Source of the DNA: a virus
Reading direction: 5' to 3' (one strand)
Length of the DNA: 23,484 bases
IMG/VR virus record: IMGVR_UViG_3300047491_000373
Coordinates: 1 to 23,484 of that record
In this document: one piece after another, positions 301 to 12,861 of the stretch
Layout: each line of letters starts with the position of its first letter
Numbering within the stretch: position 1 is the stretch's first letter
Translations under genes and position numbers: made by a program
The notes under the pieces: model-generated
Told to the model about the DNA's origin: nothing
Databases searched by the model: none
The model's input: only the letters and a program-made list of their open reading frames with translations

Positions 301-2565
301 TTAGAAAATGGCCATGGCAAATTGGTTGCCAGATGGCCTATTCGAGACGCTACTGAATGTCAGAGTCGTCTCATTGAACTTTATGAATGGCTTTGTGCTG
401 TAATCAAAGCTCAGATAGGCAACCTTGTCGGAATCTGATGCGGCCAGCAATGTGTTTGCCTGATTGTCAAAGTCAACAACTGTGTTGTCTTGAAGGAGCC
501 TGAATGAAGCCGAATTTACACCAGTGCCGCCAGTCTCCCATATGTCCGTGTTTGGGTTGTATGCCGATATTGCCCCTGTATTGTTGAAGAAGTAGACTCC
601 TTGACTCAATGGAACGAGCCTGCCTTCAGTTTTTGCAGGGCCAGCCATATCCGTCAACTTCTTGATGTCCAAGAAATATTCCGATGTTGTCCCAGATGTC
701 TTATAGAAGTTCTTGATTCGGAAGAATGTTCCAACACCTTGGTTTCTAAGAATGAATCCGGCGTTATCCTTCCAGCATGATCTATAGACACTCATGTGAC
801 CCTGGACTGGATTTCCAGAGATGTCATATGTGACTTCGTTGTTTTTAAGTTCTTGGGCGCCATTCTTGTAGTTTGCTGTTGTCAGAGTGTCCGTTGTGAC
901 TGACAAATCAGAAAGCGATATTTTGGATTTCACTTGGTTGGTTAAACTTGTGTTTGGCAGCTGTGATGTTGTTAGGCCACCAAATACAAAGTAAAGGCTT
1001 GTGGTGCTGTGCAAACTAACCCAGTTCCATGGCCTGCTCAATGGACTCTGTGTCAAGTATGTCTGTGTGAAGCCATTGAATTCATGTATGTTTATGTTTT
1101 CATTTGAGGATGGGTCAGATGGACCTCTTCCAGATGCATAATACAAAAGTCCAACCCCACTATTGCCACTTGAGGTTGTTCCTCGTGGAGCAAAACCAGT
1201 ATTTCTGTTGAACTCCCTCTTTTGTTGAGCCTCATTGTTCTGGCCATCAAGGAAACTGCTATTTCTAGATACAGTCACTGGGTTTGTGAATGTGGTTTTG
1301 AATGTCTCACTGACAAGGCCAAACTCATATGCATTTATCTGGCTTGCTGCAAAGTAGTTCCACAGCCACAGATTGTACTTTTCCACAACATCTATGGCTT
1401 CTTCATATGTGGTTATTCTGTAGGCTCCGTATTGCGTGTCGCACCTTAGCACCATGTTATAGATGCCACCAATGCTATATGACCCACGGACAGCAGATGA
1501 ATTGGTGTGAGTCAGATCGTCTGCGAGAGACCATGTATAGCTTGTCACTCCATCAATTGGCACTCCACCAGATAATTCCTCACCAGCGTAAGTCCTTCCT
1601 GTGTTTGGGTTTATGCCAGTCGGAACTTCTGCGTCAACAAATGTGTTTACTGGCGTCCTCAACACTGGAGTTGTTGTGTATGGTCCATTTGTCGGCACTC
1701 CAGATCTTGTCAAAACTTGACCAGTTCTAAGGTTGAAGTTAATTACAGCCTCTTCTGGTGCCGAAACTCGTGCATTGATGTATTCTGGGAAAACAACCGT
1801 ATCGGATCCAAAGTCATTAGTCACCGTTAAGCTGACATCATAGATTCCAGGCCTACTGTAAACCTTGTTTACCGTGCCGCCATCCAAGTCTTGCACAAGG
1901 ACATTGCTCTGGCTTATTGGACCATCAGTTGTACTTACGGTCACAATTGATGGTCCAGTGTTGTCTCCAAAGTCCCATATGTAACTTATGACGCCACTTG
2001 TTCCATCAGTCCCAAGTCTAAAACTCAGATCCTTGAACTCAACCGTTAGTGGTATAAGTCCAATCTTTGTGTTGGATGTGAACCATGCCTTTGGAACCAG
2101 TGCGATCTTCCGAAGATAGTTTATTCTCGCCTCCATGGTTCCAGTCAGTGGCTGCTGGGCTATCTCACCCTTCTTGCCGGCTGTTTGCTCGATCGCTATG
2201 ATGGCATTCTTTAGGGCGTTGTGGTGCTCAGCCATTACATTCATGGTTACATGCGTGATGTCTCTTGGCTTGGCCACATCAGTGAAGCATGGCAATAGCT
2301 CTAGATTGTCAAAAGAAACCACCGTCCTGCTTCCATAGTAGAATGTTATCGCACGAACATCGGCATCGCTGCACTGCTCTGTCAAAGTTATGAAGCCGGA
2401 GTCGGGGAATCTGCTTATGATCTCATTGTCACCAAATATGAATATTGACTTGTCGCCTGGGTTGTAGTCAGCCGACAATGTTACACGAAGGCTGTCATGC
2501 ACAAGGAACAAGGTGCTGTCACCGTCAATGCTTGTTGGGAAGTTTACCGTTGAAGGTATAACCAT
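301..2565 (-). CDS. PKD-domain tail adhesin with putative C-terminal beta-propeller
   Basis: This 754-residue protein appears modular. Residues 1-100 are a beta-rich N-terminal domain shared with both neighbours. Residues 107-160 form a helical linker with MAEHHNALKNAI. Residues 160-268 are a PKD fold with the hallmark YIWDFGDN (195-202) and GIYDVSLTVTNDFG (240-253). Residues 270-395 look like a second, diverged PKD domain (YTWSLADD, GIYNMVLRC). Residues 396-754 carry Kelch-like strands (YFVFGG near 525-530, AYNPNTDIWETGG 668-680) that suggest a beta-propeller. PKD domains are known in surface and phage-fibre proteins. The likely role is a distal tail or baseplate decoration that binds the host (inference). 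Its start ATG overlaps the upstream stop as TAATG, which implies translational coupling. Confidence 0.75.
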   Translation of the reverse strand: MVIPSTVNFPTSIDGDSTLFLVHDSLRVTLSADYNPGDKSIFIFGDNEIISRFPDSGFITLTEQCSDADVRAITFYYGSRTVVSFDNLELLPCFTDVAKPRDITHVTMNVMAEHHNALKNAIIAIEQTAGKKGEIAQQPLTGTMEARINYLRKIALVPKAWFTSNTKIGLIPLTVEFKDLSFRLGTDGTSGVISYIWDFGDNTGPSIVTVSTTDGPISQSNVLVQDLDGGTVNKVYSRPGIYDVSLTVTNDFGSDTVVFPEYINARVSAPEEAVINFNLRTGQVLTRSGVPTNGPYTTTPVLRTPVNTFVDAEVPTGINPNTGRTYAGEELSGGVPIDGVTSYTWSLADDLTHTNSSAVRGSYSIGGIYNMVLRCDTQYGAYRITTYEEAIDVVEKYNLWLWNYFAASQINAYEFGLVSETFKTTFTNPVTVSRNSSFLDGQNNEAQQKREFNRNTGFAPRGTTSSGNSGVGLLYYASGRGPSDPSSNENINIHEFNGFTQTYLTQSPLSRPWNWVSLHSTTSLYFVFGGLTTSQLPNTSLTNQVKSKISLSDLSVTTDTLTTANYKNGAQELKNNEVTYDISGNPVQGHMSVYRSCWKDNAGFILRNQGVGTFFRIKNFYKTSGTTSEYFLDIKKLTDMAGPAKTEGRLVPLSQGVYFFNNTGAISAYNPNTDIWETGGTGVNSASFRLLQDNTVVDFDNQANTLLAASDSDKVAYLSFDYSTKPFIKFNETTLTFSSVSNRPSGNQFAMAIF

Positions 2566-3614
2566 TATTGCACCACTATGCTTTCGCTGAGGAATGTACG
2601 CTTTGTCGTAGAGTTTTCCAAAATGGACATAAGGCCAGGTGTGTACTCACCAGGCTTGTCAAATACAAACCTTATTTCGTGCTTGTTTGGGTTATTCTCT
2701 TGGTAACTCTGGTTTGTGACTGGTATGCCATCAACCGTCCCATCTCCATCAAATATCCAGTACCTCTGGACAATGTCACCATCAGTCTGATCAATGAGCC
2801 TAAATTCAGTTGGGTCGATCGACATGGCATTGGCTGTCTCAAGTGAATAACCTGTGCTTGGGGTCACATAGAAGAAACTGTTTATCTCTTGCTTACTCAC
2901 TGTGATGTAGTTGCTCTTTGTCGTTATACCTTGGGCTCCAAGTATTGAGACAATATTCAGCTGCACGGAATATATCCCCTCGGACTGGTATGTGTGTGTT
3001 GGGCTCTTCTGCACTGATGTGGTGCCATCGCCAAAGTCCCAGAGGTACCTAACAAGAGGGCCAGTGCTGAAATTCTGGAATCTGACCTTGAGCGGCGGCT
3101 GTCCTATGATCTTGCTTGCCCTGAATATGGCCTTGGGAGCAAGGAATATGTTCTCTTGCCGCTTGAGGATTCCGTTGAGTGATGCAGCCGCAGGGTTGCT
3201 GGCCGTTCCAAGGTCTGTTTCTATGTTGTGTATTGCATCCTTGAGGGCGTTGTGGTGCTCGGCCATAACGCTATGGTTTACATTTGTGGTTGCTGGCCAT
3301 ATTGTCTGGCGTGAACCCGCAAAGCCACGGACAAGGTTGTAGAAGACGCCATCACTCTTGTTGCCATAGTAGATTATCTCATGGTTGCCAGCCTTTCCAG
3401 GAGGAGGCCCAAGCCTTATCAAGCCTCTTGGTGGGAACCCCTCGTTGTTGTCAACGATCACATACTTTCCATTGAAAGAAAGGGATTGCTTGAGGGTTGT
3501 GTGGGCATTGTTCTTGGCCTCATACATGGTCTGCTTGTCATCAAGAGCCAGTGGGAAGGCTGATAGGTTTCCAATGGAATAACCTGGTGTCAGTGTCGAA
3601 ATTCTAGTTGCCAT
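2565..3614 (-). CDS. PKD-domain tail/fibre structural protein
   Basis: This 349-residue protein has the same architecture as the neighbour it precedes but stops after two PKD-like domains. An N-terminal beta domain (1-105, with GFPPRGLIRLG and IIYYG) is followed by a helical linker with SVMAEHHNALKDAIHNIE (115-132). The first PKD domain (158-240) has YLWDFGDGTTS at 190-200 and GIYSVQLNIVS at 213-223. The second PKD-like domain (245-349) has YWIFDGDGTVDG at 285-296 and PGEYTPGLMS at 321-330. The linker codons share 22 of 23 bases with the paralogue (3244-3266 against 2213-2235), which suggests a fairly recent duplication. The gene overlaps the upstream coding region by 11 bases. It is probably a short paralogue, or an adaptor carrying the longer adhesin (inference). 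Confidence 0.75.
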   Translation of the reverse strand: MATRISTLTPGYSIGNLSAFPLALDDKQTMYEAKNNAHTTLKQSLSFNGKYVIVDNNEGFPPRGLIRLGPPPGKAGNHEIIYYGNKSDGVFYNLVRGFAGSRQTIWPATTNVNHSVMAEHHNALKDAIHNIETDLGTASNPAAASLNGILKRQENIFLAPKAIFRASKIIGQPPLKVRFQNFSTGPLVRYLWDFGDGTTSVQKSPTHTYQSEGIYSVQLNIVSILGAQGITTKSNYITVSKQEINSFFYVTPSTGYSLETANAMSIDPTEFRLIDQTDGDIVQRYWIFDGDGTVDGIPVTNQSYQENNPNKHEIRFVFDKPGEYTPGLMSILENSTTKRTFLSESIVVQ

Positions 3615-4374: not shown

Positions 4375-4878
4375 ATGCTCAATGGATCAAAGGCCTATTT
4401 CAGCGGCCCCATAGAATTCAGCAATGGCAATTACCGCACTCAACCATCAATCGACTTGCATAGAATGTTCGGCATCCAGATTTTTGACCCTGCTCTTGAC
4501 CCCAAGCAGCAGTGGGTTCCTGAGGTAGAACGAGCAAAGGCCGACAAGGACTACATGCGAATGAAGGAAATAGCCGAGAAATTTGTCCGAAAAGACCTTG
4601 GCATGTTGTACCAGTGCGACATGACAATAGCCTTCCTTCCACACAAGGTGCCAACCGTTGGGACTCACCATGAGATCATTGAAAGCTGGCGTACCATGAA
4701 GCCAACGCTGCTGGTTTGTCCAGATGGCATAGAGAACATACCAGTTTGGTATTTTGGTTTCATGCCATTGGATCACATGTTTTCTTCATGGGATGGTCTA
4801 TACGCCTATCTTCAACGCATCGAAAGTGGCGATGCATATGATGAGACATGGTACTTGCTACGCCAGAAATCAACATAA
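4375..4878 (+). CDS. Nucleoside 2-deoxyribosyltransferase-like protein
   Basis: This 167-residue protein is the only convincing plus-strand gene. It has the hallmarks of the nucleoside 2-deoxyribosyltransferase/DUF4406 fold: KAYFSGPIEF near the N-terminus (6-15), a central QCDMTIAFLP (80-89), and PTVGTHHEI (93-101), where Glu100 sits where the family's catalytic nucleophile is expected. TLLVCPDGIENIP (111-123) would be the following strand. Family members exchange or cleave the base of deoxynucleosides, so a role in nucleotide salvage or modified-base metabolism is possible, but substrate and activity cannot be read here. Start: ATG 6 bases after GGGAGA (4363-4368). Its 3' end overlaps the opposing gene by 9 bp with no terminator between. 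The isolated orientation suggests an acquired cargo (moron-like) gene. Confidence 0.65.
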   Translation: MLNGSKAYFSGPIEFSNGNYRTQPSIDLHRMFGIQIFDPALDPKQQWVPEVERAKADKDYMRMKEIAEKFVRKDLGMLYQCDMTIAFLPHKVPTVGTHHEIIESWRTMKPTLLVCPDGIENIPVWYFGFMPLDHMFSSWDGLYAYLQRIESGDAYDETWYLLRQKST

Positions 4879-5400
4879 TGCGGCGCCAACAACACCCTTG
4901 AACCTATACCCTTTGGAAACAGCAAGATGACCCCAAGCAGCTTTGCATTCATTTAGGTTCTGAGACTCTGGCATGTCCCCAAGATCTGCGTAGGCGTCCT
5001 TGTGCACCACTATGCCATTGACTGAACCATCAACGAAATTCATTTTTCTGTCAACTATTGGATAAAGTATGTCTTTTGGCGACTCAATGAAGCATGAATA
5101 CTTTCGGTGCACACGGTTCCTAAGCTGTGTCCCAGATATTACTATCATGTTCCATTCAGCTGGTGCATTTTTCATGCCAGTGCTAAGTAGGCTGCTGTAG
5201 GTGCTCTTGGCGCTGAAAATTTTACCGACTCTAGACATTTCAGCCATGGTTTGATCAAGTATGGAGTCTGTAACCACGGTCACATATGGGCGACCATTGT
5301 ATTTCGCCGACAGTGACGAAACGGTTATCTCCACATGCCTTGGGTTGTTCTCTGGGGTTATAATGATAAAGCCAAGGTCAATTTCTTTTGGTTCGTACAT
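4870..5400 (-). CDS. Degenerate glycosyltransferase-like (GT-A type) protein
   Basis: This 176-residue soluble protein opens with EIDLGFIIITPENNPRHVEI (6-25) and then a strand-loop YVTVVTDS (39-46), the layout of a GT2/GT-A nucleotide-sugar fold. NAPAEWNMIVISG (78-90) occupies the place where such enzymes carry the metal-binding DXD, but no DXD is present. VNGIVVHKDAYADLGDMPE (127-145) and AAWGHLAVSKGYRFKGV (154-170) resemble the acceptor half of GT2 enzymes. It may be a metal-independent or inactive relative; glycosylation of phage or host surface is only a guess. The start ATG is 7 bases after the stop of the upstream fibre-like gene, with a weak GAGAT site. Its 3' end runs 9 bp into the opposing plus-strand gene. 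Confidence 0.6.
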   Translation of the reverse strand: MYEPKEIDLGFIIITPENNPRHVEITVSSLSAKYNGRPYVTVVTDSILDQTMAEMSRVGKIFSAKSTYSSLLSTGMKNAPAEWNMIVISGTQLRNRVHRKYSCFIESPKDILYPIVDRKMNFVDGSVNGIVVHKDAYADLGDMPESQNLNECKAAWGHLAVSKGYRFKGVVGAALC

Positions 5401-5407
5401 TTTGATC

Positions 5408-6259
5408 TCATGTCAGTGAAATATCAAAGTCTATCCTGATGATGTCTTGCGATGTCAGGGCGTTGTCGAGCACAAAGGTGCCGCCAGTGTTGTTTGGCGT
5501 GAACTTGTTGAGTGTCCATGACATTGTTGGGTCGCTGCCTGGACAGTAAATCGGATAGTCGGAATTGATTCTAACACCATTTACGAACACACGCAAGCTC
5601 CCTGAGATATATGGTGTGTTCACACCAGTCACCGAGTAGTTCTGGTAATCAGCAGTTATTGGTTCAAGGTCATAGTAGTGGTTGTGGGCGAATGTGGTGC
5701 CGATGCTTAGGTTTGGCTTGATGATGAATGGCTGGGACGGCGTTACAGGTGCCGTGATGTCCCACGAGATGGTGTCTGATGGCTGTAATGATATGGTGCC
5801 CTCGGATATGGACACGATTGAGCTTGGGCTCTGGACATTGAAGTCAATGTTTGTCGCCTCATCAGCCACAAGGTTTAGCTTTGACCTCTCTGCATCAAGC
5901 ATGCGGACAAATGATACTGGGTTTGTTACACTGTTGAATCCAAGTGTGTTTTGTATGTAGCTAAGTTCGGTTCCATCCACATCTTTTGATGCATCCGTGT
6001 GTTCAGCCACGCTGTGCATGGACTGATCAACCGCAATTGACTTGAGGTTGCCGTCTGCGTCGATCGATTGGTCGATCCTATTCGCCATGTTTCCCTGGGT
6101 ACCAGCGCCATTGCGTAGAATCTGCGACGCACTCTCAAGCTCATTGTTTATGAGCTCGTCACGAAGTTCTAGATTCTTTATTGGAAGGTTGTCATACTCC
6201 CAATGGTATGGCTGGTTTGGCTGGTATTCTGGTACTGGTAGCTTGGATAAATCGACCAT
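5408..6259 (-). CDS. Fibre/baseplate-associated structural protein
   Basis: This 283-residue protein has an N-terminal helical part with AVDQSMHSVAEHTDAS (76-91) and SFVRMLDAERSKLNLVADEA (116-135), a pattern common in phage fibre and neck proteins. It resembles the MAEHHNALK linker of the adhesins in this window. The rest is beta-rich: TISWDITAPVTP (163-174), FAHNHYYDLEP (190-200), and a final SLRVFVNGVRINSDYPIY (221-238) ending in RIDFDISLT, typical of a phage fibre beta-sandwich with a V-x-V-N-G-V signature. No catalytic motif was seen. The ATG follows AAGGTG at good spacing, 14 bases after the stop of the small basic gene. A virion structural role is likely; the exact position in the tail is unknown. 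Confidence 0.65.
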   Translation of the reverse strand: MVDLSKLPVPEYQPNQPYHWEYDNLPIKNLELRDELINNELESASQILRNGAGTQGNMANRIDQSIDADGNLKSIAVDQSMHSVAEHTDASKDVDGTELSYIQNTLGFNSVTNPVSFVRMLDAERSKLNLVADEATNIDFNVQSPSSIVSISEGTISLQPSDTISWDITAPVTPSQPFIIKPNLSIGTTFAHNHYYDLEPITADYQNYSVTGVNTPYISGSLRVFVNGVRINSDYPIYCPGSDPTMSWTLNKFTPNNTGGTFVLDNALTSQDIIRIDFDISLT

Positions 6260-6273
6260 GTTTCACCTTTTAT

Positions 6274-6420
6274 CTATGGAGTATTGCTTTGATTGTTTTT
6301 GGGGACAATTTTTTTTCTGTCTATGCGCATTTGTCTAAATATGAATGTTCGCCTGCGCATGCTTTTTCTATTGTATTCAGCTGGTGTTTGCGCCGGTTTT
6401 TTGTCAAGCCAGTAGTTCAT
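6274..6420 (-). CDS. Small, highly basic protein (48 residues), unknown function
   Basis: This short gene occupies most of what looks like a 157-bp gap. Its ATG (6420-6418) overlaps the stop of the SET-domain gene as ATGA. It is preceded by a strong GGGAGG ribosome-binding site (6426-6431) with 5 bases between, and it ends at TAG (6274-6276), 14 bases before the next start. The product starts MNYWLDKKPAQTPAEYNRKS and continues with MRRRTFIFRQMRIDRKK. By my count it has 13 Lys/Arg against 3 Asp/Glu, a net charge near +10. No known family is recognised. Possible roles are nucleic-acid binding, a small virion protein, or a partner or substrate of the SET protein (all inference). The start signals make a real gene likely. 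Confidence 0.68.
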   Translation of the reverse strand: MNYWLDKKPAQTPAEYNRKSMRRRTFIFRQMRIDRKKIVPKNNQSNTP

Positions 6421-6935
6421 AATAACCTCCCAAGATCGTAAAGGTCGAGTTCAAGGAAGCTCTGCCAGTCACTCTTATCTGTCTTGTTTGATTCGTGTTG
6501 TTTTTGCATCCAACTGAGCAAATTTTGCCAGTTATCGCCATAGTTGCCAAGTATCTCTTCGTCTTTGGATACATCACGAAGGAACACATAGGCGATGCAT
6601 TCATTTCCAATGTATTCTATCTGCACATTTCTCTTGGACTCCTCATCCATGTGGTTCACCATGCCGGAAAATCCAAGTGGTATGACCATCTTGTTGCCGG
6701 TGACTATATCACCGCTTCCAAGCTTGATGACATCTAGAGCGAATTTGTACTGATTGGCAAATGTCGTGCACTTGTCGGCGTATGAATCCCTCTCGACAAT
6801 GACGCCACTTATCTCTATGTGGTCTCCCTTCTTGATGCTGCGCCTCGCAAACAGCCCCTTGCCGGCGCCCTTGATGGTTGACTCCTTGATGTAGAACCTA
6901 TCGTCATTCTCGTCGTATCGGAGCGATTTCCCCAT
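6417..6935 (-). CDS. SET-domain protein (putative lysine methyltransferase)
   Basis: This 172-residue protein matches the SET fold in order. STIKGAGKGLFARRSIKKGD (19-38) is the KGxGxFA cofactor segment. IPLGFSGMVNHMDEESKRNV (85-104) contains the NH and later Asn of the NHxxxxN region. FLRDVSKDEEILGNYGDNW (118-136) corresponds to the D/E-E-x(3)-Y-G end of the domain, with Tyr132 as the probable active-site tyrosine. SET proteins transfer methyl groups from S-adenosylmethionine to lysine. No pre-SET or post-SET cysteine cluster is visible, so it is a minimal SET unit plus a C-terminal helix (136-172). It is coupled by TGATG to the 89-residue gene and by ATGA to the 48-residue basic gene. Its substrate is unknown; a phage structural or host protein is possible. 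Confidence 0.78.
   Translation of the reverse strand: MGKSLRYDENDDRFYIKESTIKGAGKGLFARRSIKKGDHIEISGVIVERDSYADKCTTFANQYKFALDVIKLGSGDIVTGNKMVIPLGFSGMVNHMDEESKRNVQIEYIGNECIAYVFLRDVSKDEEILGNYGDNWQNLLSWMQKQHESNKTDKSDWQSFLELDLYDLGRLL
6426..6431 (-). promoter_or_regulatory. Strong ribosome-binding site inside the SET gene
   Basis: GGGAGG on the minus strand lies within the last codons of the SET gene (Leu-Gly-Arg-Leu-Leu-stop), 5 bases before the ATG of the 48-residue gene. It decides that start and suggests coupled translation. Confidence 0.7.
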
Positions 6936-7204
6936 CAGATCTCCCCTTTTTTTATGGCTTCAACTATCTCTGGAAGAGTCACACTGCGGCCAAGAAACTC
7001 ACAGAAGCAGTCAACAAAATGGTTGATGATGGACATGGATATGGATTCCTTCATGTCAGGCCTCTGGTCTATCATCTTTTTTGTGCGTATGAGCGAGGCC
7101 TCATCTATGCCCCAGTCAAAGACCTCGTTGCCAACCACCAGCATGTTGACTTTCTTTCCAGCCTCATCGCTGTGTATTTTTACAATGCTAATTGCGCTTG
7201 GCAT
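6935..7204 (-). CDS. Small conserved-looking protein, unknown function
   Basis: This 89-residue acidic to neutral protein starts at an ATG preceded by AGGAGA (TAGGAGATGGCAC-ATG); that site overlaps the stop of the upstream gene. It ends in a TGATG overlap with the SET gene, so the two are probably translated together. It shows a short beta segment (VNMLVVGNEVFDWGID, 19-34), then helices with FVDCFCEFLGRSVTLPEI (63-80). Two Cys (66, 68) are close together but do not form a clear metal site. I do not recognise a family. It could be a partner of the SET protein or a small virion protein. Confidence 0.65.
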   Translation of the reverse strand: MPSAISIVKIHSDEAGKKVNMLVVGNEVFDWGIDEASLIRTKKMIDQRPDMKESISMSIINHFVDCFCEFLGRSVTLPEIVEAIKKGEI

Positions 7205-7214
7205 GTGCCATCTC

Positions 7215-7694
7215 CTAGACGAAGGAAAGTCTCCAATTGAATGTTATCTGCATGCTGCTTGTCTTGTTTAGGTCTGCGAAGTTTACCATGCTGTATAGGT
7301 CGCCATTTGACATCTGCAAGGCCATTTCATTGATGGCATAACCATTTGCATCGTCGAATGACAGCACTGATGTGAACACGACTTGACTTGGCATGTTCGT
7401 GTCAACCGAGCTTATTACTGGTTTGCTCGCTCTGGTGACTCCAAAAAGACCAGTCCTTGAACTATCAACGACTTTAAGCGTGCCACCAGATGTGCCACCA
7501 TCACCAAATATCATCTTGTTGATGTAAAAGTTGTAGGTTGACCCAATGCTGTTCGCTAGGCTGCTGGCAAGCGCCTCACGACCCTTGCGAAGGATGGTGT
7601 TCCTAACCTCAGAAACCTCCTTGCTGCCATCGGAATATTCAATGACCCTCTCAACAGTGCCGATTACTTTCAGTGGTTCATGCAATTCTTTCAT
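7215..7694 (-). CDS. Small baseplate/fibre-like structural protein
   Basis: This 159-residue protein overlaps the end of the 1,060-residue wedge gene as ATGA, with an AAGG-type site upstream. It has the segment VRNTILRKGREALASSLANS (30-49), then a Gly-rich stretch (MIFGDGGTSGGT, 61-72), and ends in strands INEMALQMSNGDLYSMVNFA (121-140) and SMQITFNWRLSFV. The N-T-I/V-L-x-x-G-R-x-x-L pattern with a terminal I-x-W-x-L-x-F strand is typical of small tail-fibre or baseplate-attached phage proteins. Its N-terminus (VIEYSDGSKE) resembles the C-terminus of the preceding protein (IIEYSDGTRK). The exact role is unknown; virion location is inferred from its place directly behind the wedge genes. Confidence 0.6.
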   Translation of the reverse strand: MKELHEPLKVIGTVERVIEYSDGSKEVSEVRNTILRKGREALASSLANSIGSTYNFYINKMIFGDGGTSGGTLKVVDSSRTGLFGVTRASKPVISSVDTNMPSQVVFTSVLSFDDANGYAINEMALQMSNGDLYSMVNFADLNKTSSMQITFNWRLSFV

Positions 7695-10877: not shown

Positions 10878-12431
10878 TTATTCGTAAACGAATCCTAGGT
10901 CGATGATGTCAGGCCTGATTATCTCAAAGTATTTTGCGGTCACGATGTTTGTCGCAGTTGGCGAATCATCCGTGCTGAAAGCAATGTCAATTGATGAAAT
11001 CTCCTTTAAGTCCGAAAGTTCCTTGACTATGTCGGACTCCTTGAGGTTCTGGCCAAATTCCCATCGGCTGATGTTGAAGAAACTATTGACTCTGTTCAAT
11101 ATTTTAACTCTGAGTTCATCCTCGAATTTCTTGTAAAATTTATCTATCGTCACAGATATGTTGACATCAACCGTGATTGGCACACCATCCTTGATGCATA
11201 TGTAATCTGTAACCATTTTTTTTGCCTCAAGGTGGTTCATCAATGCTGTTTTTAGTTGGTCTGAGGCGTTCTCAAGTGTTTCGGTGTCTTTTCTCGCTAA
11301 AATGTAGATGTCTATGATGTTTGCGGCGCATCCATGGTTGCGAAGTACTGCTGTTGATTTTCCAATTTGCCCTTGATATGGAGTTGCGAACTGATCTGTC
11401 AAGGTTTTATAGTCAAGTCCTGTAACAGCCCTATCTTGTGTCCTTAGATAGGCTGGTAGTTTTCTCCTTATATCTTCAAGGCTATCTCCATCAAAACCAT
11501 ATTGTGCTCTTGTGTAGTTGTTGAGAAACACTGGAACTGTGTAGCTTAGACCAGGAACATCAACCAGAATGCTTTTTTGCGTTGCGTTAGTTACAAGGTT
11601 TCCTCTTACACCACCGCCAGTTCTGTAAGTGAATCTAATTAATGAACCTATGGTTGGAACCATGCCAGCAACACCATTACCAAATATGATAAATGCACTA
11701 AAGTCAGAATTGTATTCAATACGGTATTCACGAAGCTGTTGTGACTCTGTAAAGAAATCAACTTTGTTCCAAAGAACACCATCAACTTCAACTTTGATGC
11801 TATCGTAAATCACAGTTGTAAATCCAGTTCTGAAGATTTGATTTACAACCCCAGTTCCTGGAACCTCTTCAATCCTTGTTTTTCCTTCTAATCCGACAAT
11901 GCTTGCATTGACCAATGAATTTGCTGGTAAAAGTATGTCGTCATCAAAAAGTGGATTTCCCTCTGCGTCTGCGGCAAACAATTCCATGTCCAATGACTCA
12001 CCGCCACCATTGACTTGAATGTAAATTGGAGTTGCGATTGTTATATCTGTGGTTATTGCATTTGTTAAACTTGCCGTCCAATAGCTTTTCGCTGCTATGG
12101 GTGGAGTTGGCTGAAAGCCTACAAGTCTACACAGTCTGAATGCGTTGTCTAATTCAGTTACTGTGTCTATGAAAATTTCATTCGCTATCTGATCCATCTT
12201 AAAAGAAAGCGTATCAGCAATGAAGGCCCAGTTTTCCAAAAGCATTACAGCCAATGAAGACTCAACGAAATCAGAAAACTCGCCAGCAAACCTTTGTTGT
12301 GTGAATTGCAGGAGCCTTGTCTTCATGCTCCAAAAATCTTGGTTTGTGTAGTTTAAATTGAACACATTTGGCTTTTTAATGATTTCAGCCTTAGCGTATG
12401 GTTCTACATTAAAAGGACAATTATTGGTCAT
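10878..12431 (-). CDS. Baseplate wedge protein, gp6/J-like
   Basis: This 517-residue protein is a baseplate J-like protein. Evidence: a helical N-terminal region with RFAGEFSDFVESSLAVMLLE (48-67) and FKMDQIANEIFIDT, the segment LCRLVGFQPTPPIAAKSY, the family's signature FGNGVAGMVPTIGSLIRFTY, then RTGGGVRGNL and AQYGFDGDSLEDIRRKLPAY. In contractile tails this protein forms the wedge ring around the hub and pairs with the gp7/gpI-like protein, which here follows after 4 bases. The ATG has a good TAGGAG site. The gene is noticeably more AT-rich than the genes to its left. Family assignment is confident; the T4 equivalence is by order and family knowledge. Confidence 0.85.
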   Translation of the reverse strand: MTNNCPFNVEPYAKAEIIKKPNVFNLNYTNQDFWSMKTRLLQFTQQRFAGEFSDFVESSLAVMLLENWAFIADTLSFKMDQIANEIFIDTVTELDNAFRLCRLVGFQPTPPIAAKSYWTASLTNAITTDITIATPIYIQVNGGGESLDMELFAADAEGNPLFDDDILLPANSLVNASIVGLEGKTRIEEVPGTGVVNQIFRTGFTTVIYDSIKVEVDGVLWNKVDFFTESQQLREYRIEYNSDFSAFIIFGNGVAGMVPTIGSLIRFTYRTGGGVRGNLVTNATQKSILVDVPGLSYTVPVFLNNYTRAQYGFDGDSLEDIRRKLPAYLRTQDRAVTGLDYKTLTDQFATPYQGQIGKSTAVLRNHGCAANIIDIYILARKDTETLENASDQLKTALMNHLEAKKMVTDYICIKDGVPITVDVNISVTIDKFYKKFEDELRVKILNRVNSFFNISRWEFGQNLKESDIVKELSDLKEISSIDIAFSTDDSPTATNIVTAKYFEIIRPDIIDLGFVYE

Positions 12432-12432
12432 A

Positions 12433-12861
12433 TTAAGCTCCTAAGGGTACTTCTAGCCTCAGCTCATTAATCGTCCTGATATCAAGTCTATCAAAGAATG
12501 TAACTCTGATGAGCAAAACATGCTCGTTGTCTGGGTCTGGATCGTCTGGGTTTGCGCTATCCGAGTCAAGCTTTGACTGAATATATATGTTTTCAATCGC
12601 CACTCTTGGCTCCCACATTTTCAATGAAGTGGCTATCATTCCTTTTGCCTCTAAGATAGTGCTGGCATCATTTGGGTTAAAAAAAAGTTTCCTTAATGGT
12701 GTGCCAAAATCTGGCAACATAACCCTTTCCCTTGGATTTGTGAGCAAAAGAACAATCATGTCTGATTTGATCTGGTCAACTCCACTTTGAATGTAAAAGA
12801 AACCCTTTGGGTTCTTTGTTATTGGGTATGGAACCCCCTTGAAACTTTTTTGGGATATCAT
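12433..12861 (-). CDS. Baseplate wedge protein, gp25-like
   Basis: This 142-residue protein matches the GPW_gp25 family. SGVDQIKSDMIVLLLTNPRE (26-45) and ERVMLPDFGTPLRKLFFNPN (45-64) contain the conserved N-P-G/R-E-R and P-D-x-G-x-x-L motifs, and WEPRVAIENI (83-92) is the typical E-P-R strand. It then ends in strands VLLIRVTFFD and LRLEVPLGA. In contractile tails it links sheath initiation to the wedge. Its start overlaps the spike gene's stop as TAATG, with AGGTGG upstream. An acidic insert (SDSANPDDPDPDNE, 105-118) lengthens one loop. Confidence 0.9.
   Translation of the reverse strand: MISQKSFKGVPYPITKNPKGFFYIQSGVDQIKSDMIVLLLTNPRERVMLPDFGTPLRKLFFNPNDASTILEAKGMIATSLKMWEPRVAIENIYIQSKLDSDSANPDDPDPDNEHVLLIRVTFFDRLDIRTINELRLEVPLGA

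Follow-up and report, generated by a model that had tools for sequence, protein, structure and literature searches.

The DNA analysed here, a virus sequence of 23,484 bases from IMG/VR (the window), raises the question of what a SET-domain methyltransferase does amid the tail genes of a phage, and which protein it modifies. A sequence-only reading had placed such a gene at 6417..6935 on the minus strand, described it as a minimal SET unit lying between structural genes and coupled to them by overlaps, and proposed that it modifies a virion or ejected protein. Phage protein methylation is little explored, and our literature search yielded no publication that describes SET enzymes of phages.

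The window encodes a SET-domain protein with conserved catalytic residues

The 172-aa product of the gene matched PF00856 over the entire profile (positions 1-105 of 105) with a score of 38.8 bits, above the curated cut-off of 22.4 (E 1.3e-9). It also matched solved SET domains in sequence, namely an EZH2 chimera (E 8.6e-5) and PBCV-1 vSET (E 0.0014). The AlphaFold2 model, for which LR756511 (L006) was left out of the alignment, had a pLDDT of 70 and was weak in the C-terminal extension; its top Foldseek matches were SET/PR domains throughout, and PRDM5 was the best VIA structural match (Z 13.8). PBCV-1 vSET (A612L), the histone H3K27 methyltransferase of an algal virus, is likewise a small stand-alone viral SET protein and aligned with the model at Z 11.7 (rmsd 2.3 and 28% identity over 103 residues), but its chain of 119 aa is without a C-terminal extension of the window kind. 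To our knowledge the hosts of tailed phages, which are bacteria or archaea, have no such histone tails.

The motifs G25-K-G27, N94-H95 and Y132-G133 were found in the protein, and G25, G27, N94, H95, E126, E127 and Y132 were invariant in all 14 sequences of our alignment, at identities down to about 38%. Thus the SET assignment of the sequence-only reading was borne out by the predicted fold, the cofactor motifs and the active-site tyrosine. The literal NHxxxxN motif that it also reported is not there, as the window protein reads NHMDEESKRN, with seven residues between H and N; the NHxxxxN spacing is usual for SET-domain lysine methyltransferases, not defining. Such non-canonical spacing could point to a catalytically dead fold with a structural or docking role, and some SET/PR domains are indeed thought to be inactive, but none of the catalytic and cofactor positions that we checked varies among relatives, and we regard loss of activity as highly improbable. 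Of the term minimal SET unit, the SET core stood (approximately residues 14-134), whereas the attribute minimal does not describe a protein with an extension of about 38 residues (135-172) that carries a conserved L165-Y166. The post-SET CxCx4C zinc site of the SUV39, EZH and MLL type is absent from the 172 aa, which hold no cysteine after Y132, and profiles of defence systems gave no match.

In the comparison of the window with L002, dN/dS was 0.049 for the SET gene, close to the 0.045 of gp25; the SET gene is thus under strong purifying selection. Taken together, it is very likely that the gene encodes a SET methyltransferase whose active site is intact and whose catalysis is predicted. The protein would act as an S-adenosylmethionine-dependent protein-lysine methyltransferase.

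The SET gene is coupled to two small genes inside the tail operon

On the minus strand, the gene order is a tape-measure-like gene, baseplate protein genes (gp25, gp6/J-type wedge), tf159, g89, SET, a 48-aa ORF, g283 and more tail genes, and four IMG/VR contigs are fully syntenic with the window. The gp25-type baseplate wedge protein is encoded at 12433..12861 (minus; PF04965, E 1.7e-14), and the baseplate wedge protein that served as our probe for this tail operon in further phages at 10878..12431 (minus; phrog_219, E 6.6e-29). Overlaps on both sides of the SET gene were confirmed: its start overlaps g89 (6935..7204, minus) by 1 nt (TGATG), and its stop overlaps the 48-codon ORF (6274..6420, minus) by 4 nt (ATGA). 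Neither of these adjacent genes is a recognised structural gene, and the placement between structural genes was to that extent incorrect, although the position inside the tail operon is real and is conserved in one clade. Next out are tf159 (7215..7694, minus), a tail-collar fibre N-terminal-type protein (PF12571, E 3.4e-7) that is syntenic in relatives, and g283 (5408..6259, minus), a tail-operon protein conserved by synteny and without a family match in profile searches. They form the upstream and downstream borders, respectively, of the slot in which the SET gene lies.

The 157-nt gap after the SET gene is mostly occupied by the 48-codon ORF, and terminator and promoter consensus matches in it were at chance level. 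A search for the T4-type late promoter TATAAATA, with one mismatch allowed, gave 12 matches against 13.9 expected. In the clade of the window, the SET gene and g89 would be made late, together with the tail genes.

Two further features of the window were recorded. A nucleoside 2-deoxyribosyltransferase-like gene (4375-4878, plus; PF05014, E 1e-5, below the cut-off) lies antisense inside the tail operon, as it does in 32 of 40 relatives that have both flanking genes. At 301-3614 (minus), adjacent proteins of 754 and 349 aa are about 30% identical over their N-terminal parts, a likely duplication judging from their sequences.

The constant neighbour of SET is g89

A homologue of the 89-aa protein g89 is encoded directly 5' of SET in every phage locus examined, whatever its genomic location, usually with an overlap of 1 or 4 bases. 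The exception is L016, in which the g89 frame is broken and an ORF of 176 aa lies between g89 and SET. Hence it is g89, not the tail genes, that is the constant neighbour of SET. We consider it likely that g89 is a functional partner of the enzyme, and the simplest reading is that this small product of the overlapping upstream gene docks to SET or presents the target lysine. The conserved g89 offers a direct handle for a substrate search by pull-down.

The predicted structure of g89 consists of three strands followed by three helices (AF2 pLDDT 87); no Foldseek match at E 0.001 was found in PDB or BFVD, and the best VIA match reached Z 3.1. A PqqD-type peptide-binding domain, suggested by topology alone, was dropped as no match supported it. 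A late sigma factor was also rejected as constant partner, since a phrog_234-like ORF (E 1.7e-4) precedes g89-SET only in LR756511 and L033.

The g89-SET pair is optional in the tail operon

Relatives of the SET gene were found in 13 IMG/VR loci and in LR756511, a 595-kb metagenomic phage, and further ones through a g89 search; apart from a few named phage records, they are metagenomic contigs. The pair occurs in three genomic contexts: in the tail operon (window, L002-L005, L013, L020-L030), in a helicase region (LR756511, L014-L016, L032/L033), where a sigma-like gene immediately precedes g89 in two cases, and in a third region (L008-L012). The distance between the pair and the same baseplate wedge is 161 kb in LR756511 (401 and 562 kb, respectively) and 178 kb in the 341-kb record G002 (66.7 and 245 kb). 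The phage family formed a single clade in the SET tree (84/94). As the third context is nested within the tail context, the pair appears to have changed place at least twice on this tree, with moderate support; the tree has long outgroup branches and is rooted for drawing only.

Subsequently, IMG/VR was scanned with the wedge alignment, which gave 80 tail-operon loci, 51 of them informative at the tf159-g283 junction. The junction holds g89-SET in 20 loci and other DNA in 10, and in 21 the two flanking genes are directly joined; the pair is thus missing from 31 of the 51 operons. Many of these rows are near-copies (the wedge tree comprises 36 distinct sequences among 55 rows), and the presence of the pair needs at least two changes on the wedge tree. 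Furthermore, eleven SET-lacking records (54-340 kb, some of them fragments) contain neither SET nor g89 in the sequence examined, and among the records with the tail operon and without both genes are some of 251-340 kb. The tail therefore does not depend on the pair being adjacent, and the pair is almost certainly an optional cassette at this slot.

Presence or absence between conserved syntenic flanks, a feature of moron-like cassettes, is what we observed for the pair. Like phage morons and other accessory cargo, it is an optional block amid conserved late genes, with relatives that carry it and relatives that do not; it differs from morons in being translationally coupled to its neighbours, and consensus matches for a promoter and terminator of its own were at chance level. 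Its optional presence and its placement elsewhere in relatives give it the look of a removable add-on and not of a tail part. The pair might accordingly be described as an accessory cassette that would be useful in some hosts.

Other SET proteins and the case for a tail target

The tail-operon position nevertheless suggests another reading, in which the target of SET, methylated in the course of late assembly, is a virion or ejected protein, for instance a tail-fibre or baseplate protein of the same operon. The coupled starts and the persistence of the location in a clade whose SET proteins diverge to 41% identity (L013) are consistent with it, and LR756511 and G002, where the pair lies elsewhere, still have tail genes. 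What still speaks most strongly for a tail role is the presence of SET genes in the baseplate operons of two distinct lineages of phages. The second of these is phrog_28741, a minimal SET family of about 100 aa from marine cyanophages and pelagiphages (P-RSM6, P-SSM7, Kolga), whose members are annotated merely as hypothetical protein or of unknown function, or are unannotated. Similar to the window protein, it is a phage SET with a PF00856 match (E 1.7e-11) that is frequently found in the baseplate operon, yet it is shorter, forms a separate clade (96/96) and in most loci lies before gp25 or beside nrdB. Among its best 80 IMG/VR loci, the marine SET gene directly precedes gp25 in 56 and follows nrdB in 5; examples directly before gp25 are at 132178-132477 in P-RSM6 (HQ634193) and at 39579-39881 in MH319765.

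Against a virion target stand the 31 of 51 informative tail operons from which the pair is missing, its distance of 161-178 kb from the tail operon in LR756511 and G002, and the occurrence of the marine SET beside nrdB too. With g89 as the sole constant neighbour, the proposed modification of virion or ejected proteins was not supported, and we consider it unlikely, at most doubtful. As the slot is a space for optional cargo, the product of a gene located in the tail operon need not act on the tail. A target of SET outside the tail operon is somewhat favoured, and it would be either a protein of the host or one of the phage that is not specific to this operon.

A bacterial relative was also found. 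The SET protein of the Planctomycetia MAG SXID01000056 (L035) is 40% identical to that of the window and has the same active-site residues, but is shorter (126 aa) and has no adjoining g89. It was the sole confirmed match in a pattern scan of 84,980 genomes, and a SET of this kind was found in 1 of 294 genomes of its phylum at E 1e-15.

Paralogues of g89 precede a lysine transaminase-like gene

When we searched with the N-terminal tag (see below), we obtained additional records in which g89 has no adjoining SET gene and is followed by an aminotransferase gene. The aminotransferase of L272 matched TIGR03251 (L-lysine 6-transaminase) with E 7.9e-155 and 515.6 bits; as this score is under the equivalog cut-off of 520.8, we call the enzyme transaminase-like. 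It also matched PF00202 (aminotransferase class III; E 5.5e-81). The g89-transaminase pair was identified in 8 of 14 phage records searched: LR756511 (503931-505428), G002 (179017-180520), G003 (5363-6854), G317, G318, G320, L272 and L247. Four of these, LR756511, G002, G003 and G318, carry both the g89-SET and the g89-transaminase pair. In G316 neither enzyme adjoins g89, and the pairing is therefore not absolute across the g89 family.

In both pairs a g89 gene lies 5' of the enzyme gene in the same tight spacing, although the enzymes belong to different families with different chemistry. Hence g89 appears to be a partner common to interchangeable enzymes whose action is on the amines of lysine side chains, and a single adaptor family might serve two kinds of reaction at lysine amines. 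That a transaminase-like enzyme can take the place of SET next to a g89 protein suggests that huge phages have a common system for targeting lysine. Coincidence may also account for the lysine theme, given the score below the cut-off and the fact that L-lysine 6-transaminases normally act on free lysine. More speculatively, and in our estimate improbably, g89 could be a phage-specific adaptor presenting protein lysines to interchangeable SET or transaminase-like subunits, with the transaminase acting on proteins. If so, huge phages would carry two parallel lysine-rewriting systems, methylation and conversion to an aldehyde.

The paralogues also bear on the idea that SET is dedicated to modifying g89, which would then be its methylated substrate. 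Constant adjacency and overlap with SET would fit this arrangement, as would the N-terminal lysines that transaminase-type g89 proteins have in common, but among SET-type g89 sequences no column reaches 70% lysine, and we think it distinctly improbable.

The reading that we prefer, with a probability of roughly 0.5, is that of an accessory protein-lysine methyltransferase with g89 as its dedicated partner, catalysis being predicted. It draws on the SET fold, the intact catalytic positions, purifying selection, the fixed pairing with g89, the optional tail slot and the transaminase-paired paralogues.

Small ORFs with a common N-terminal tag occupy the slot

The ORF after SET in the window (6274..6420) encodes a basic protein of 48 aa (pI 11.4) that starts with MNYWLDKK; it has a GGAGG ribosome-binding site and a third-position bias (19 of 31 changes, p 0.0013). 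The tag M(K)N[FYH]WL[DE], in its fuller form M(K)N[FYH]WL[DE][KR], heads ORFs of 24-155 aa with unrelated bodies, several of which end in W-x-L-D-[LV]. Tagged ORFs were found in the tf159-g283 slot of 20/20 loci with the pair, 10/10 loci with other DNA and 0/21 joined loci, and in none of the 80 marine loci. They occur in the window, L002, L005, L020, L166, L174, L181, L185, L190, L193, L196, L200, L218 and L271; in L218 four of them follow one another, of which one has a late-sigma-like body. The tag codons vary synonymously, which implies that the tag is conserved at the protein level.

Such a lysine-rich ORF could itself be the substrate of SET, in the manner of a histone tail. Its ATGA overlap with the SET stop, the good ribosome-binding site, a pI of 10-11 both in the window and in its near relatives, and its presence in all 20 pair-carrying tail loci would agree with this. 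Nevertheless, tagged ORFs are equally present in phages without SET at the locus (the 10 loci with other DNA), SET is not followed by such an ORF in L013 or outside the tail-operon context, and the ORF bodies are not conserved; we judge a substrate role very doubtful. Rather, the tagged ORFs are a separate finding that merits its own study, with the N-terminal tag as a candidate loading or targeting signal.

Within the 2.39 Mb searched, distinct tag matches were confined to the slot. Scanning IMG/VR blindly with a 20-base tag pattern gave 62 stretches, and the same baseplate wedge family was present in 8 of 8 records tested from it, all from huge phages. The other stretches held very short or different ORFs, perhaps by chance, and several tagged ORFs lay outside the slot. 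The tagged ORFs at 11641-12021 in L218 and 10074-10439 in L271 resemble, in their bodies, the small late-sigma-like protein encoded before g89-SET in LR756511 and L033. Moreover, several huge-phage proteins start with MxxFxxW[LIMV]xE or similar (L006 9634, 22619, 24358 and 9604; L015 6140; L016 2107), which we take to recall the capsid-targeting sequence of T4.
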